Source: Mycoplasmatota bacterium (GTDB lineage Bacteria > Bacillota_I > Bacilli_A > Izemoplasmatales > Hujiaoplasmataceae). Taken from it: DNA of 59,256 nt. The notes beneath the pieces are model-generated. The model searched no databases. It worked only from the letters and a program-made list of their open reading frames with translations, and was not told where the DNA came from. This document shows, piece by piece, positions 22,726 through 38,356 of this stretch. The stretch's first letter is position 1; each line of letters begins with the position of its first letter. The translations under genes were made by a program, and so were the position numbers. Where the stretch lies: the NCBI GenBank assembly GCA_016342455.1, contig JAEIOE010000007.1, positions 1 through 59,256 on the forward strand, given 5' to 3'.

Positions 22726-23709
22726 TTATAATTCGACTGTTTTTGCAAGACCAGAGAATCTAATAACTGATTCTACTGAAGATAAACAGTTGGCTCGTTG
22801 AGGATATGTTTCGCCTGACACGATTAATTGTTTGTTTGAAGTATACAACTTATATTGATAACGTTCTTGTTTATCTTTAGAAACAGTAAAGTTTTGATTT
22901 TCAATTGCATTCTTAATTGATTCCAAACCATTTAATGCAGATTGTTTTGAAGCATATTTTTGAGATACTAATAAGACTTGCCCATTTGAAGCAACTAATT
23001 TTATAAAGAAAGCTTTATCTCCTTCTTTAGATAGTTGATATTTACCATTTGGTTTCTCTTCAACTTTTAGATTTTCAACTAATACTTCTCTCATTTCATT
23101 TTGAGGTATTTTAGCTAATTCTACTATTTTATCACAAAGATAGAATTTTTTTACTGACTCAACAGCTGATTCAGCTAGTTTTACAGTTTTATAAAATTCA
23201 CCTGCCGCAATAACTCTAGCTCCTCTAGCTCCAAATAAATCAAAATGAGAAAATCCTACTTTATCTGTAGAAATCTCGAAATTTCCAGTTTCTACAGCTT
23301 TAATAAATGTTTCAATACCGTTTTTAGCACCTTTTTTTGATGCATAACCATATGAAACGACTAAAATTTCTCCATTTGATGCTTTTAAACGGTATTTATA
23401 TAATCCGGCTTCAGGATATATTTCATATTTACCACTAGGGCTAGATTTCACACTTGGCTTAGCTGTAGCTTTTGTTTTAGCCGCTACTTTTGCTTTAGCT
23501 GTAACAACTGGATTTTTAACCGGCTTAGCTTTCACTTCAACTTTCTTAACTTGTTGACTATTAGTTTCCGCTTTTTTCTTTTCTTCTAAAGCTTTTTTTC
23601 TTTTTTCTTCTTCTATTCTTTTATCTTCAGCTATTTTTGCTAGTCTTTGTTCTTCAAGTCTTTTTTGTTCTGCTTCTCTTTTCTTTTTTCTTCTTCCAAA
23701 TAACCCCAT
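22726..23709 (-). CDS. YegP (DUF1508) repeat protein with charged N-terminal segment
   Basis: A 327-residue protein beginning MGLFGRRKKKREAEQ; the upstream GTG of the open frame is inside the Shine-Dalgarno sequence GAGGTGATAAAT. Residues 1-90 are a highly charged coiled-coil segment followed by a Lys/Ala/Val-rich linker. The rest carries two pairs of YegP-type repeats (about 93-143, 153-198, 221-270, 283-322), with recognisable cores KYRLKASNGEILVVSYGYASK and KLVASNGQVLLVSQKYASK. The biochemical function of YegP domains is not established. It is monocistronic, with an extended -10 promoter and a strong terminator. Confidence 0.8.
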   Translation of the reverse strand: MGLFGRRKKKREAEQKRLEEQRLAKIAEDKRIEEEKRKKALEEKKKAETNSQQVKKVEVKAKPVKNPVVTAKAKVAAKTKATAKPSVKSSPSGKYEIYPEAGLYKYRLKASNGEILVVSYGYASKKGAKNGIETFIKAVETGNFEISTDKVGFSHFDLFGARGARVIAAGEFYKTVKLAESAVESVKKFYLCDKIVELAKIPQNEMREVLVENLKVEEKPNGKYQLSKEGDKAFFIKLVASNGQVLLVSQKYASKQSALNGLESIKNAIENQNFTVSKDKQERYQYKLYTSNKQLIVSGETYPQRANCLSSVESVIRFSGLAKTVEL

Positions 23710-23729
23710 ATTTATCACCTCTTAAACAG

Positions 23730-33099: not shown

Positions 33100-34065
33100 T
33101 TAATATGTAATCTCTTCTAAATATAAGCCCGCAGCGGGTGCTAGGTTTTTGGTATGTTCTCTACTTTTTTCTTTGATAATATCCGAGATACTTAGTTCTA
33201 GATTGCCATTTGAAATCTGGACTAAAGCAAAAACTATTATCCTTATCATATATCTAAGAAATCCATTACCCTCAAATACCAATGTCAATTCGTTTTGTTT
33301 TTGAATTAACTCCGCATTGAATATTGTTCTTATCGTCGAATCTGGATCTCCCTTACAGAAACTTTTAAAATCATGAGTTCCAACTAGTTGTTTCAAATTT
33401 TCTTCTAGTATTTCTATATTAAGTTCTTTAATAAACCATTCATAATTGATTCTGAACGGATTTATTTCGTTCACAACCATCTTATAAATATATCGTTTTT
33501 TATAGACATCGTATCTTGTATGAAATAATGGATGTACTTCTTTAACTGATTTTACTATTATATCCTTTGGTAACTGAGTATTTAAGTAATTTAACCATTT
33601 TTCTTCTGTTAGAGGTTTATCACTGTTAAAGTGAAATACATAGTTTAAAGCATGTACTCCCGCATCGGTTCTTGAAGCTCCTTGAATTAGAGTATCTGCA
33701 CCATTAATAAAAGCGATAACCTTTGTTAATTCGCCTTGTATCGTTATTTGATCCTTTTGGATTTGAAATCCACTATATCTGTGACCATCATAACTAATAA
33801 TCGCTTTAAACCTTTTTGAATCCTCTAATGTTGTCATTAATATTATTCTATTTACTAACTCGTCTTCAAAGCCTAGTTTTACTGGGTTACCTAATTTATT
33901 ATAGCCATAAATCATATGTGAATTGTCATCAAGAGATAGAAGTAAATCTTCAAACAATTCTTGATTTTCTTCTATTACTTTTTTTACTGAATCTATTCCA
34001 TAAACTACTAAATCGTCTAGTTTAAGTCCTACCTCATTATGTAGTGTTTTAATATCAAAAACCAT
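33100..34065 (-). CDS. truA: tRNA pseudouridine synthase A with N-terminal extension
   Basis: Makes pseudouridine at positions 38-40 of tRNA anticodon stems. The TruA core runs from about residue 85 (KAIISYDGHRYSGFQIQKD) to the end, with catalytic Asp134 in GASRTDAGVHA. The core is normal length, but the protein is 321 residues because of an 84-residue N-terminal extension that I do not recognise. The first ATG has AAGGTGATATAAC upstream; no internal start near residue 77 has a ribosome-binding site, so the extension is probably translated. Follows ecfT by one base, as in B. subtilis. Confidence 0.92.
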   Translation of the reverse strand: MVFDIKTLHNEVGLKLDDLVVYGIDSVKKVIEENQELFEDLLLSLDDNSHMIYGYNKLGNPVKLGFEDELVNRIILMTTLEDSKRFKAIISYDGHRYSGFQIQKDQITIQGELTKVIAFINGADTLIQGASRTDAGVHALNYVFHFNSDKPLTEEKWLNYLNTQLPKDIIVKSVKEVHPLFHTRYDVYKKRYIYKMVVNEINPFRINYEWFIKELNIEILEENLKQLVGTHDFKSFCKGDPDSTIRTIFNAELIQKQNELTLVFEGNGFLRYMIRIIVFALVQISNGNLELSISDIIKEKSREHTKNLAPAAGLYLEEITY

Positions 34066-34066
34066 G

Positions 34067-35029
34067 TTATATCACCTTGATAACTATGGCGCCTGCGAAG
34101 CACAATAGTGTAAATACTCCACTGTATACATCGATCATAGAAAACTTAAGAACATTTATTCTTGTTCTTGATTGTCCTGGAACAAAGTTTCTGGATTCCA
34201 TAGCGTCGGCTAATTCTTCGCTTCTCATAAATGCGATAATAAACATTGGAACTAATAAGGATATAATTTGTTTTAATTTATCTTTCAATTTTCCTTCACT
34301 GAAGTCGGCACCACGGCTCGCTTGAGCAGCCATAATTTTTTGTGCTTCATCAAAAATAGTAGGAATATATCTTAGACTTAAAGAAATAATTAATGCAAAG
34401 TCTTCTGAATTAAAACCGATTTTTTTTAATGGTCTCAATAAACATTCAATTCCGTGAGTCAAATCTGTTGGTTTTGTACTTAAGGTTAAAACAGTGGTAA
34501 AAGTGATTATAATCAAGATTCTAACGATAACAAACACTGACATTTCAATTCCTTTTTCATATATTGTTAGTGAAAAAGAATAAAAATCAGTTCCATAGCC
34601 AACGTATCTTAAAATAAAGTATACTCCAAAGACAAATGCTAAGAATAATAAAAATTTAAATTTCCCTAATCTTAACAGTATTCTCCAAAATACAAAAGCG
34701 AGTACAATAGCTAAAACAGAATATAAATTAAAATGTAATGTGGCTTGCGAAAGAATTTTACCTTCTGTATTTAACGCAATTTGAAAAACAAAAGTAAAAA
34801 TTAGTAATACAAAAATTGCACGAAGCCCCTTCGCTACTTTAATGATTGATATTTGACCAATCAATAAAATGAAAATAGCGGCTGCTAAAGCGATAGATAA
34901 TTGAGTAATATTTTCTAGCATGAAAACCGCTATCATGAGAAATAATACTGATATAATTTTAGTTCTAGGGTCTAATCGATAGAAAAATCCTTTTCCTGGA
35001 ATATATTGACCAATAATGATACTATTCAT
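34067..35029 (-). CDS. ecfT: ECF transporter transmembrane subunit EcfT
   Basis: Energy-coupling factor membrane component shared by vitamin and metal S-components; 320 residues, longer than the usual 265. Six to eight hydrophobic segments are predicted. The coupling motif MAAQASRGADF and the second MRSEELADAMESRNF match the ARG-type motifs that contact the ATPases. The extra length lies in the hydrophobic middle (about residues 95-165). It overlaps the ecfA2 end by eight bases. Confidence 0.94.
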   Translation of the reverse strand: MNSIIIGQYIPGKGFFYRLDPRTKIISVLFLMIAVFMLENITQLSIALAAAIFILLIGQISIIKVAKGLRAIFVLLIFTFVFQIALNTEGKILSQATLHFNLYSVLAIVLAFVFWRILLRLGKFKFLLFLAFVFGVYFILRYVGYGTDFYSFSLTIYEKGIEMSVFVIVRILIIITFTTVLTLSTKPTDLTHGIECLLRPLKKIGFNSEDFALIISLSLRYIPTIFDEAQKIMAAQASRGADFSEGKLKDKLKQIISLLVPMFIIAFMRSEELADAMESRNFVPGQSRTRINVLKFSMIDVYSGVFTLLCFAGAIVIKVI

Positions 35030-35885
35030 TCTTCGTCACCCTATTCAATTCGTTGATTACATCTTCAGCGGTTTTTTGATAGATATCTACATCTAAGTTT
35101 AAAGTTTCTTTTATATGTTTTAATGTTTTTACAGTATTTGGTAAGTCTAAATGATTGTTTTTTAGGATATTGCTTTTAAATAATTTCTCTGGCGTTCCTT
35201 CAAATGATAATTCTCCATCTTTTAATACAATCACCCTATTAAAATATTGATATACTAAATCCATATCATGCGTAATTATTATTATTGTTTTATTCGTTTT
35301 TTTATGAATGTCAGTAAATAACTTCATTAATGTAGTTTTACCCTCCGGATCTAATCCACTTGTAGGTTCATCTAACACTAATATTTCAGGATCTAAGGCT
35401 AAAATACCGGCGATACTTACTCTTTTCTTCTCTCCCCCACTAAGGTTGAAAGGATTTCTATTTAAGTAAGTTTCATCTAAACCAACTAATTTTAATGAAT
35501 CCAATGCTAATTCTTTAGCTTTTTCTTTTGGAACTTTAAAATTCATTGGGCCAAACATAACATCTTTCTCAACAGTATCTTCAAATAATTGGTATTCCGG
35601 AAATTGAAATACTAGTCCAACGTTTTTCCTAATGCTATTGTATTTAATTTTTTTATTTCTTTTTTTGGTTATGATATTACCAAAAATTTCCACTGTGCCT
35701 GATGTTGGAAATATTAATGCGTTCATATGTTTAGCTAACGTTGACTTACCTGAACCAGTATGACCAACTAGAGCAATAAACTCTTCATGTTCTGATATAT
35801 TCAAAGAAATATTTTGAATTGCCTTATAAGTTATCTTTGAATAAGATGCGTATTCATGGGTTACTTCGTTAAAACGTATTCCCAT
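35022..35885 (-). CDS. ecfA2: ECF transporter ATPase EcfA2
   Basis: A 287-residue ABC ATPase of the ECF module. Walker A GHTGSGKST, signature LSGGEKKR, Walker B VLDEPTSGLDP and ITHDMD are present. The C-terminal extension that binds EcfT ends the protein. Starts 25 bases inside ecfA1 with AAAGGAAAAATT upstream, so the genes are coupled. Confidence 0.95.
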   Translation of the reverse strand: MGIRFNEVTHEYASYSKITYKAIQNISLNISEHEEFIALVGHTGSGKSTLAKHMNALIFPTSGTVEIFGNIITKKRNKKIKYNSIRKNVGLVFQFPEYQLFEDTVEKDVMFGPMNFKVPKEKAKELALDSLKLVGLDETYLNRNPFNLSGGEKKRVSIAGILALDPEILVLDEPTSGLDPEGKTTLMKLFTDIHKKTNKTIIIITHDMDLVYQYFNRVIVLKDGELSFEGTPEKLFKSNILKNNHLDLPNTVKTLKHIKETLNLDVDIYQKTAEDVINELNRVTKNE

Positions 35886-36652
35886 AATTTTTCCTTTATT
35901 TTTTGGCTTTCTACTTTAGAAGCAACCTCTAAAGCCACTGGCAATTCTAAGTGACATTCTCGGAATACTTCTGGTTTTTTTAATAAATCATTTGTTGCTT
36001 CAAAGGCATATACTTCCCCTTGATTCAAAATTAACATTCTATCTGCTAAAAGTGCTTCATTTACATCATGAGTAATCATGATGATAGTCAAACCTTCTTT
36101 GTTTAACGTTTTGATATATTCTATTAAATCACTTCTAGTGTATGGATCTAACATTGAAGTTGCTTCATCAAATATCAAAATATCCGAATGCATCGCTAAT
36201 ATTCCCGCTATAGCTACTCTTTGTTTTTGACCGCCAGAAAGATTTGAAGGTTGTTTATCTAAGTATTCTTTCATCCCTACTTTTTGAGCGTAAAAATCGA
36301 TTTTTTCAAGCATTTCTTCTCTCGGAATACACAAGTTTTCCATACCAAAAGCGATGTCATCTCTTACAGTGACACCGACAAATTGATTATCCGGGTTTTG
36401 AAATACTATACCAATTTTCTTTCTTAATTCATAAGCTGATTCATCATTCAATAAAACTTGATCTATTAAAATTTCACCACTTTGTGGTTCTAATAATCCA
36501 ACTAATGTTTTAGCTAAAGTTGATTTCCCAGAGCCGTTATGCCCAAGAATAGCAATCCATTCTCCCTTTTTAATCTCGATATTTACATTTTTTAATCCCA
36601 GTTTTTTCTCATTATAAGAAAAACTGACATCTTTAACTGAAATAATACTCAT
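35861..36652 (-). CDS. ecfA1: ECF transporter ATPase EcfA1
   Basis: A 263-residue ABC ATPase partner of EcfA2. Walker A GHNGSGKST, LSGGQKQR, LIFDEATSMLDP and ITHDV are intact. I start at the ATG giving MSIISVKDVSFSY; the open frame extends 15 bases to a TTG that has no family support. No S-component gene is near, as expected for a shared group II ECF module. Confidence 0.95.
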   Translation of the reverse strand: MSIISVKDVSFSYNEKKLGLKNVNIEIKKGEWIAILGHNGSGKSTLAKTLVGLLEPQSGEILIDQVLLNDESAYELRKKIGIVFQNPDNQFVGVTVRDDIAFGMENLCIPREEMLEKIDFYAQKVGMKEYLDKQPSNLSGGQKQRVAIAGILAMHSDILIFDEATSMLDPYTRSDLIEYIKTLNKEGLTIIMITHDVNEALLADRMLILNQGEVYAFEATNDLLKKPEVFRECHLELPVALEVASKVESQKIKEKLWEYVLTK

Positions 36653-36699: not shown

Positions 36700-37419
36700 C
36701 TAATTAAATAATGCTTTTTCTATATCTCTTAAAGCCACTATTCCTAGTAGTTTTTGTTCCTTTTCTCCCTCTTCAGTTACTAGTAACAACAAAAGTTCTC
36801 TTCTGCTTTTTAAGTCTTTAGTAAAACATTCATAAGCTTCATCTAATGAAGCATCTCTACTTATGAATTCAAAGTATTTTCTTGGATCTGAATTCAAATC
36901 TATTGCTTCTAGTAAATCATTTATTTTCATTTTTTTTGAGATTGTTTGATTTTTATTCATAGATAAGTAGTCAAATACAGATTTTTCAGTGAATACCCCC
37001 ATTAGTTGATTGTCATTAATAATCGGGATAGTATTAAATCCATATTGTTTTAACATATTGATTACATCTCCAACCAAGGTATTTAACCCCGCAGTTTTAA
37101 GTTTAGATAACGGAATCATTACATTCTCTACTTTAAGGGGTTTAATTATTCTTTCTACCACTTCTTTAAAACTGTCTAAAAACTTCTCGCTAGGAATTAT
37201 CACATCATTATTATGAGATATAATATTTCTAACTTGAGAAGCTTGTTGAAGAATATCAAAATTAAACTTATTTGATATCAATGGATTCGTATTACTTTTT
37301 TTGATTCTATAAATAGTAGACATAAAACCAGAGTAAGAATAATTCCCTTGGTTGTATTCTATCCTTAAATATTTTTCTAGTTTCTTAAAAAAGTCTAAAA
37401 ATTGTTCTTCGTTTGTCAT
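36700..37419 (-). CDS. HEPN-like domain fused to a CBS pair
   Basis: A 239-residue protein with no close match that I recognise as a whole. Residues 1-90 are helical and contain RNIISH (64-69), the R-x4-H pattern of HEPN domains, preceded by a helix with repeated Phe/Leu (FLDFFKKLEKYL). Residues about 94-155 and 165-237 form two CBS motifs (VMIPL ... NTIPIINDNQLMGVFTEKSVFDYL; SLDEAYECF ... LLGIVALRDIEKAL), which usually bind adenine nucleotides. Inference: a nucleotide-sensing domain controlling an RNA-binding or RNA-cleaving helical domain. It lies between rplQ and ecfA1, 25 bases after a PH-like gene. GGGAGGAAATTCAC precedes the ATG. Confidence 0.6.
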   Translation of the reverse strand: MTNEEQFLDFFKKLEKYLRIEYNQGNYSYSGFMSTIYRIKKSNTNPLISNKFNFDILQQASQVRNIISHNNDVIIPSEKFLDSFKEVVERIIKPLKVENVMIPLSKLKTAGLNTLVGDVINMLKQYGFNTIPIINDNQLMGVFTEKSVFDYLSMNKNQTISKKMKINDLLEAIDLNSDPRKYFEFISRDASLDEAYECFTKDLKSRRELLLLLVTEEGEKEQKLLGIVALRDIEKALFN

Positions 37420-37444: not shown

Positions 37445-37873
37445 CTATCCTTCTTGATATTGTGCTAATAACTCATTGTATAAATCTAAAGTAGATTGCT
37501 CATCTTTAAGATTTATATAGAAATAGTCCTCACCATCATATATTTCTATCCAAGGGTGCGTACTATCTCCTAAATTTAAATACACCGCTAACTCGCCTTC
37601 TAAGGTGAAGTATCCCGATTTAACATTACCAACAGATGAACCATTGGTTCTTCTTGCAATTACTAAAGGATCTGTCATAGAAATTGCTACGGTACTGTCT
37701 ATAACAATTTTCTTAGAATATAACCCACCACTAATTTCTAAAGTATTCGTAGTCTCATCAATTGTAAATATTGCCTCTTTAGAACCATTAAAAATAATAA
37801 AAGCGGAAAAGCCTAATGCTAAAATAGTTATTAAAATTCCTGCTATTGTGGCTATTTTACTGTTATTTTTCAT
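37445..37873 (-). CDS. Membrane-anchored bacterial PH-like domain protein
   Basis: A 142-residue protein with a single N-terminal membrane helix (about residues 7-30) and an extracytoplasmic domain. The pattern NTLEISGGLYSKKI ... ARRTNGSSVGNVKSGYF ... YFYINLKDEQSTLDLY resembles the bacterial pleckstrin-homology-like (bPH_5) family, whose role is unknown. It lies downstream of the rplQ terminator and upstream of the HEPN/CBS gene, with a TATAAT at 37907-37912 and GGAG site before the ATG. Confidence 0.65.
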   Translation of the reverse strand: MKNNSKIATIAGILITILALGFSAFIIFNGSKEAIFTIDETTNTLEISGGLYSKKIVIDSTVAISMTDPLVIARRTNGSSVGNVKSGYFTLEGELAVYLNLGDSTHPWIEIYDGEDYFYINLKDEQSTLDLYNELLAQYQEG

Positions 37874-37940: not shown

Positions 37941-37973
37941 AAATAAAAAAACCGAGATATTAACATCTCGGTT
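37941..37973 (-). terminator. Intrinsic terminator closing the S10-spc-alpha cluster
   Basis: Minus-strand stem AACCGAGAT / ATCTCGGTT, followed by seven T, about 20 bases after the rplQ stop. Confidence 0.93.
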
Positions 37974-37993
37974 TTATATCTTTTATTGATTAA

Positions 37994-38356
37994 TTAAACT
38001 AATTCAATAACAGCCATTGGACAAGAGTCACCTCTTCTTGGTCCAATTTTATAAATACGTGTGTATCCACCATTACGTTCTTTAAATCTAGGTCCTAATT
38101 CAGTGAATAATTTTACCATAGCATATTGATCATCTAGTTTTAAATCTCTTACTGTTTTTTCTGCTATTCTAGCTGAATTTAAGTCGCCTTTTTTAGCAAG
38201 AGTAATTAATTTTTCTACAGTTCTTCTAATTTCTTTCGCTTTAGTAACTGAAGTTTCAATTTTCTCATGCATAATAAGTTGCGTTGCTAAATCACGAATT
38301 AGTGCTTTACGATTAGAGCTATTACGACTAAGTTTTGTATATCCTCTACTACTCAT
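37994..38356 (-). CDS. rplQ: 50S ribosomal protein L17
   Basis: A 120-residue L17 with [27 protein letters not shown] and the C-terminal [15 protein letters not shown]. Normal length; last gene of the ribosomal cluster, followed by a strong terminator. Confidence 0.98.

Follow-up and report, generated by a model that had tools for sequence, protein, structure and literature searches.

The window analyzed here, a stretch of 59,256 nucleotides of Mycoplasmatota DNA, encodes on its minus strand (36700..37419) a protein of 239 amino acids, belonging to a family of full-length homologues, in which a predicted HEPN domain is joined to a pair of CBS motifs. We propose that this protein may be a homodimeric, metal-independent endoribonuclease set by an adenine nucleotide and serving as a chromosomal switch that responds to stress or energy state. 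To this reading as a whole, with the activity, ligand and target that we infer below, we give an even chance.

The open frame begins with an ATG, preceded at 7 nt by the sequence GGGAGG, and the plus strand of the same segment is full of stops. The preliminary description had placed an R-x4-H motif in the helical N-terminus of this frame, and the motif lies exactly at the residues claimed (R64-N65-I66-I67-S68-H69; 37213..37230, minus strand), at the end of predicted helix 3, where it would form the active site of an RNase. Taken alone, the bare R-x(4-6)-H pattern would be weak evidence: it is found in 21 of the 52 mechanically called window ORFs of at least 140 amino acids, the HEPN-CBS frame being counted among them. 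The stricter pattern R-[NDH]-x3-H occurs a single time in the 17,108 amino acids of these 52 frames, in the HEPN-CBS gene.

In order to follow these residues through the family, 54 proteins were collected, of which 51 remained once near-duplicates had been dropped (among them L076, a truncated frame of 193 amino acids). Pairwise identity within this set has a median of 25% and a minimum of 12.5%, and five positions are invariant: F7, R64, N65, H69 and P132. As R64, N65 and H69 are kept in 51/51 non-redundant members, it was concluded that the motif reflects more than chance, with the caveat that the seeds of the profiles by which the members were found all carried R-N-x3-H. Conservation of the arginine and the histidine had been set beforehand as a test of the HEPN assignment, and both residues held throughout. 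According to the accessible text of PMC3710099, a HEPN domain is a four-helix bundle with R-x(4-6)-H at the end of helix 3 or the start of the loop between helices 3 and 4, the arginine being followed by a polar N, D or H. The same arrangement was found here, with R64-N65-x3-H69 in all 51 members and its position at the end of helix 3. That source also describes a second acidic feature, E-x3-[KR], which lies close to the motif in helix 2. The candidate counterpart in the present family, E15-x3-R19 (E/D in 47/51 and R/K in 42/51 members), sits in predicted helix 1 and not in helix 2.

The N-terminal domain (residues 1-92; 37144..37419, minus strand) was delimited from AlphaFold2, VIA-align 2 and hhalign, its main predicted helices being residues 3-18, 29-42, 51-69 and 78-92. 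The AlphaFold2 model of the window protein, computed with 18 relatives, had a pLDDT of 85.8 and a pTM of 0.71. In each fold search with the whole model, the best 50 structures listed were CBS pairs; the HEPN part was then modelled and searched alone. For residues 1-96, AlphaFold2 gave a pLDDT of 88.7, with four main helices and a short one at 46-49, and H69 was the last residue of predicted helix 3. When this model was compared with 303 candidate chains by VIA-align 2, the top nine entries had Z values of 7.3 to 5.5, with rmsd of 2.9-3.8 and 81-86 aligned residues; for helical bundles, the tool warns that a Z under about 13 may reflect a common arrangement only. Five of the nine are HEPN or MntA-HepT proteins by title, 2q00 is unlabelled and 7bxo is presumably a HEPN entry. 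Furthermore, 5yep and 1wwp are HEPN entries according to the accessible parts of PMC7701990 and PMC3710099, respectively. The tenth entry, at Z 4.7, is unrelated to HEPN. Foldseek returned no significant HEPN match for this part, the best-ranked row, that of the HEPN protein 2hsb, having an E of 1.0. The structure prediction suggested in the preliminary description thus yielded a confident four-helix model for which HEPN proteins head the VIA-align 2 list, at modest Z and without significance in Foldseek. No Abi_2 structure was named in the fold lists for the HEPN part, which leaves room for one to exist.

Profile-profile comparison, also suggested there, pointed the same way. With hhalign, the family scored 25.1 against Abi_2 (shuffled maximum 14.8 over 100 shuffles, reversed 10.8) and 25.3 against HepT-like proteins (shuffled maximum 17.2 over 100 shuffles, reversed 14.3), above all shuffles in both cases, yet the program's own probabilities were low (11.9% and 30.4%, respectively), with 29-30 columns aligned round the motif. 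The Abi_2 set comprised 19 of the 20 fetched proteins, L110 being left out because the ORF chosen for it did not carry the motif; the HepT-like set, 15 of 20 loci, is biased, as the selection script demanded the motif. In the window protein itself, every match to a HEPN Pfam family was under its cut-off. The only N-terminal matches were sub-threshold ones to DUF6548 and to Abi_2 (PF07751), the latter with 17.1 bits for a cut-off of 25.6. When 32 diverse HEPN fragments of the family were scanned, weak matches (E of 0.0014 or worse) were obtained to HepT-like (7 fragments), HEPN_RiboL-PSP (5), HEPN_Cthe2314 (4), DUF3644 (4), Abi_2 (3), HEPN_Swt1 (2), pEK499_p136 (2) and DUF4145 (1). In all, 34 families were weakly matched by these fragments, many of them not HEPN and mostly by one member each. 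For HEPN_Swt1 (PF18731), 195 genomes gave 2 matches, too few to build a profile. The commonest weak match was DUF6548, a family of unknown nature, with 12/32 fragments and a best E of 7.8e-05 (37132-37419 and the members' N-termini); DUF6548 may itself be a HEPN family.

Conservation, predicted fold, profile-profile comparison and the Pfam scan, four lines drawn from sequence and models and none of them overwhelming alone, agree on a HEPN domain, and we consider this fold very probable. The composition given in the preliminary description, a HEPN-like N-terminus followed by a CBS pair, is upheld by these results and by those on the CBS part.

For the C-terminal part, Pfam PF00571 was matched over two stretches with E=4.2e-12 and 46.7 bits for a cut-off of 24, which bears out the claim of a CBS pair. 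The best stretch, residues 99-152, corresponds to CBS motif 1 (36964..37125, minus strand), which is also delimited by conservation: P132 is invariant (51/51) and G141 is found in 50/51 members. Its GVFTEKS segment lacks the aspartate of the canonical nucleotide-binding motif, and an aspartate at 147 occurs in 0/51 members. CBS motif 2 covers about residues 180-238 (36706..36882, minus strand), with approximate bounds set by the second Pfam stretch and by alignment to solved CBS pairs. It contains G226-I-V-A-L-R-D232 (36724..36744, minus strand), of the form G-h-h-[T/S/A]-x-x-D, which we take to be a nucleotide-binding motif and which would be the likeliest nucleotide site. Conservation in this half is high (T215 in 48/50, G218 in 49/50, T/S/A at 229 in 50/50 and D232 in 48/50), residue 229 being Ala in the window protein and not Thr or Ser. 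With CBS2 canonical and CBS1 degenerate, each chain would probably have a single principal site for a nucleotide, judging by what is usual for CBS motifs. In the short linker between the HEPN and CBS parts, P94 is kept in 46/51 members.

When residues 91-239 were compared with solved CBS pairs, the best 50 structures had Z values of 13.8-11.6 and included DarB, CbpB and AcuB, with 13-17% identity to these over the aligned residues. As the bound ligands among these best 50 span c-di-AMP, AMP, ADP, ATP and Ap4A, the CBS fold points to no particular one of them. One match each to diadenylate cyclase and to RelA/SpoT was obtained in the host genome, which makes either c-di-AMP or (p)ppGpp a possible, if unproven, ligand. 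The homologue of the f14 genomes was considered as a candidate for the c-di-AMP protein CbpA, on the idea that these genomes were Listeria, and this identification was dropped because the flanking genes are unlike those of the CbpA locus.

On the minus strand, the HEPN-CBS gene lies downstream of an ORF (37994..38356) that we take to be rplQ, with which the ribosomal cluster ends on this side. Between the two stands an ORF of 142 amino acids (37445..37873, minus strand), 25 nt upstream of the HEPN-CBS gene, with an N-terminus that appears hydrophobic by eye and no confident Pfam match. Downstream follow, on the same strand and in conserved order, the ABC ATPase genes ecfA1 (35861..36652, its start placed at an internal ATG) and ecfA2 (35022..35885), both identified by Pfam ABC_tran, then ecfT of the CbiQ family (34067..35029; Pfam CbiQ, 5.1e-39) and an ORF (33100..34065) that from its sequence we take to be truA. 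What separates rplQ from the HEPN-CBS gene varies among close relatives: in place of the 142-amino-acid ORF, loci L031-L035 carry ORFs of 213-236 amino acids with hydrophobic starts, and it looks as if this were a variable insertion spot. Elsewhere in the window, a minus-strand ORF of 330 amino acids (22726-23718) contains four DUF1508 stretches.

In the gap between rplQ and the HEPN-CBS unit, the hairpin scan found an intrinsic-terminator-like structure (37948..37975, minus strand) with a stem of 12 pairs and a T-rich tail; over 3.6 kb, 3 terminator-like sites were found for 1.2 expected. Comparable hairpins were present in 12 of 14 relatives, scanned without a shuffle control, even where the gap is of 54-61 nt; L035 and L037 gave none. 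As such a hairpin follows rplQ, the HEPN-CBS gene probably stands, by its sequence context, outside the ribosomal operon proper. In the genomes with short gaps, its transcription would depend either on read-through of the hairpin or on a promoter located within rplQ.

Eighteen named loci were compared, from Izemoplasmatales, 'Tenericutes', Bacilli and related MAGs, along with one complete genome (CP076020.1). rplQ lies upstream in 14/18 (for L040, only 1.5 kb of DNA is available there), and in L036, L038 and L039 the ribosomal genes of the window were not found in the 6 kb upstream. On the other side, ecfA1 is downstream in 17/17 loci whose DNA runs past the HEPN-CBS gene. Likewise, it is downstream in 22/22 close orthologues of the host's family with DNA there, probably largely from the same genomes; in two of these, L015 and L017, it stands 0.7-1.1 kb away. 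Close orthologues mostly share the rplQ-ecfA1-ecfA2-ecfT-truA surroundings.

Within the host's family, 30 of 34 genomes have a full-length member, the four that lack one being G007, G008, G011 and G018, some of them incomplete. Twenty-four of these 30 are close orthologues, 41-100% identical along most of the sequence, and six (in G005, G013, G015, G020, G024 and G026) are divergent members. Next to these six, rplQ, rpoA, ecf genes and truA were not seen within roughly 1.5 to 2 kb on either side; at the divergent loci L025-L030, flanks of about 1.5 kb contained no neighbour gene of the window except ABC-ATPase matches of 37% in L027 and 27% in L028. In the sister families of the order, 3/49 genomes of the second and 0/7 of the third have a member (3/56 together). 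As four of the 34 genomes lack a full-length member, six of the 30 have divergent ones only and the genomes of the sister families nearly all go without, the protein is not universally needed. The class sample gave matches in 66/395 genomes (E<=1e-14). In the phylum sample, 54/392 genomes matched (E<=1e-12), all labelled as the same class or nearer, in a sample whose number of other classes is not given; at least one of these matches (G231) spans the CBS part only.

The preliminary description had set weight on the position beside the ribosomal cluster. This position counts for little, and a growth regulator of the ribosomal operon by proximity is weakened as a candidate, in view of the terminator-like hairpin in the window and in 12/14 relatives, of the three loci L036, L038 and L039 without rplQ in the 6 kb upstream and of the divergent members located elsewhere.

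A mobile or phage origin was also considered and set aside: plasmid and phage records gave no match in tblastn with the window protein, no IMG/VR viral contig was confirmed with alignment A2 as the query, and PHROGs and PADLOC gave no match.

Among the other divergent members across the class, neighbours are varied and no repeated partner was seen by eye except in genus g40, where a gene for a LigT-type 2H-phosphoesterase lies 2-3 nt upstream of the HEPN-CBS gene in 5/5 genomes examined (L072, L073, L144, L145 and L146). Of 49 loci tested for such a neighbour, the other 44 have no adjoining LigT gene, although the flanking DNA is short in some. Some LigT-type 2H-phosphoesterases open the 2',3'-cyclic phosphates of RNA, and the adjacency in g40 would be a small, independent hint of an enzyme that leaves such ends. 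At L086:5001-7089, a NUDIX hydrolase gene lies between two HEPN-CBS genes, and in L080 a NUDIX gene is two genes away. In L089 and L091, from two other clades, the HEPN-CBS gene adjoins a RimP gene and a gene for a Cons_hypoth95 methyltransferase, presumably RsmD-like, possibly by coincidence.

The mechanism that we propose would proceed as follows. The HEPN domains of two subunits would pair, bringing R64, N65 and H69 of both into one cleft, where H69 would activate the 2'-OH and R64 would steady the phosphate, so that the cleaved RNA would end in a 2',3'-cyclic phosphate. The CBS pairs would dimerise as well and hold both HEPN domains, and the binding of AMP/ADP/ATP, Ap4A or c-di-AMP would shift the HEPN spacing, turning cleavage on or off. 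For the RNase step, the motif and the mutational work on other HEPN enzymes described in the accessible text of PMC3710099 argue for catalysis, which by sequence we regard as quite likely. For the gating step, the CBS pair is considered together with the mutants of DS-11, a one-protein CBS and HEPN anti-phage system from E. coli found with DefensePredictor in 2026 (PMC13092281, accessible text). By this analogy, gating by an adenine nucleotide is somewhat favoured. In the preliminary description, a ligand-gated RNase had been put forward, and this would be plausible, given the precedents in what is available of PMC3710099 and PMC13092281. Finally, because of its conservation and position, the protein would be a chromosomal regulator that adjusts RNA turnover or translation to energy or stress, and not a mobile toxin. 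The split of the 30 family members into 24 and 6 slightly lowered our estimate of such a core role and slightly raised that of defence; we now place a core regulatory role rather than a defensive one just short of an even chance.

The main rival is an effector of abortive infection, acting against phage in the manner of DS-11: a phage would alter an adenine-type nucleotide, the CBS pair would sense the change and the HEPN RNase would stop the host. DS-11 has the same two domains, and both were mutated in its validation in E. coli, according to the accessible text of PMC13092281; moreover, the HEPN-CBS genes have no constant partner, are patchy across the class (66/395 genomes) and, for the divergent members, lie at other loci. 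However, the close orthologues, 24 in the 34 genomes of the host's family, sit among housekeeping genes, PADLOC gave no match, and the plasmid and phage records (tblastn) and IMG/VR provided none or none confirmed. A defence gene fixed in the chromosome would be compatible with all of these points; overall, we judge this explanation unlikely. A HEPN toxin of a HepT/MntA-like toxin-antitoxin pair that has gained CBS domains would fit the structural re-alignment, in which HEPN toxins are nearest, and the HepT-like profile match. In the window, however, the genes adjoining are the 142-amino-acid ORF followed by rplQ on one side and ecfA1 on the other, with no nucleotidyltransferase gene among them, and no constant partner was seen by eye in the neighbouring ORFs across clades. 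In HepT, a Tyr two residues after the His is the site of AMPylation, and a Tyr at this position occurs in 0/51 members; such a toxin is most improbable.

Two further readings would spare the catalytic step. In one, the HEPN domain would bind RNA without cutting it and, coupled to the CBS sensor, would do so in response to a nucleotide, a role proposed for MtlR. The accessible text of PMC3710099 considers some HEPN domains non-catalytic, but there inactive HEPN domains are those that have lost the motif, whereas R, N and H are constant in 51/51 members down to 12.5% identity, and we regard this reading as improbable. In the other, the protein would be a c-di-AMP receptor of the DarB/CbpB type whose HEPN part serves only as a platform for binding a protein, for example Rel. 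The alignment of the CBS pair with DarB and CbpB among the structures listed and the single diadenylate cyclase and RelA/SpoT matches in the genome are in its favour; nevertheless, the NCBIfam CbpB model NF041630 gave 14.6 bits for a cut-off of 125, the DarB structures lie within 1 Z of CBS pairs binding AMP or ATP, and the invariant HEPN motif would be left unexplained. We consider it very improbable. The adenine-gated endoribonuclease set out above is the reading that we retain. Its fullest form, in which a vertically inherited core RNase of part of the Bacilli reads an adenine alarmone or the energy charge and cuts host RNA, is advanced tentatively, as possible though on the unlikely side.

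If this proved true, RNA turnover or translation would be coupled to the energy of the cell, and the protein would be a housekeeping counterpart of DS-11 and perhaps its evolutionary source. HEPN RNases have been studied mostly as toxins and defence effectors; a HEPN-CBS gene fixed at one chromosomal place in close orthologues and carried by most genomes of its family would point to a part for ligand-gated HEPN RNases in ordinary regulation too. With DS-11 and its named mutants as a precedent, the idea is directly assayable. In open-access full text, we found no earlier report of a core-gene-like HEPN-CBS group, present in most genomes of a family and, in close orthologues, at a fixed non-defence locus.

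Among known systems, DarB/CbpB and AcuB share the CBS-pair fold and bind c-di-AMP or AMP/ADP/ATP/Ap4A according to structure titles; we know of no HEPN domain in these proteins. HepT-MntA (PF01934) resembles the window protein in its predicted fold and R-x4-H motif; the window protein differs by the absence of an MNT partner and of the Tyr after the motif, and by the added CBS pair. Abi_2 and HEPN_Swt1 (PF07751, PF18731) have RN-x3-H with the same spacing; most of the Abi_2 proteins collected show it as RNxCAH or RNxxAH. Among named HEPN families, Abi_2 gives the best match to the window protein, below the Pfam cut-off and similar by profile-profile comparison only, and the Abi_2 frames used were mostly longer, at 205-342 amino acids. 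The kind of protein itself is already known, in a different context: HEPN-CBS fusions were described in 2013 by Anantharaman et al., who proposed a nucleotide-controlled RNA stability, and the accessible text names alr3009, listed with the Abi2/Swt1 group, and a Pelobacter protein (PMC3710099). The "novel growth regulator" of the preliminary description was thus too strong as to novelty, with HEPN-CBS proteins in print in what is available of PMC3710099 and PMC13092281. Compared by description only, the 2013 fusions likewise join HEPN to CBS; some of them also bear HD domains, whereas the window family shows HEPN and CBS only. With DS-11, also compared by description, the likeness is that HEPN and CBS domains are combined in one protein, for which an adenine-type ligand is proposed; both domains are needed in DS-11, whose defence was abolished by mutation of CBS Y157 or of the HEPN catalytic residues (PMC13092281, accessible text). 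The two differ in that DS-11 is a defence gene of E. coli, whereas the gene of the window is a chromosomal gene kept in synteny among close relatives.
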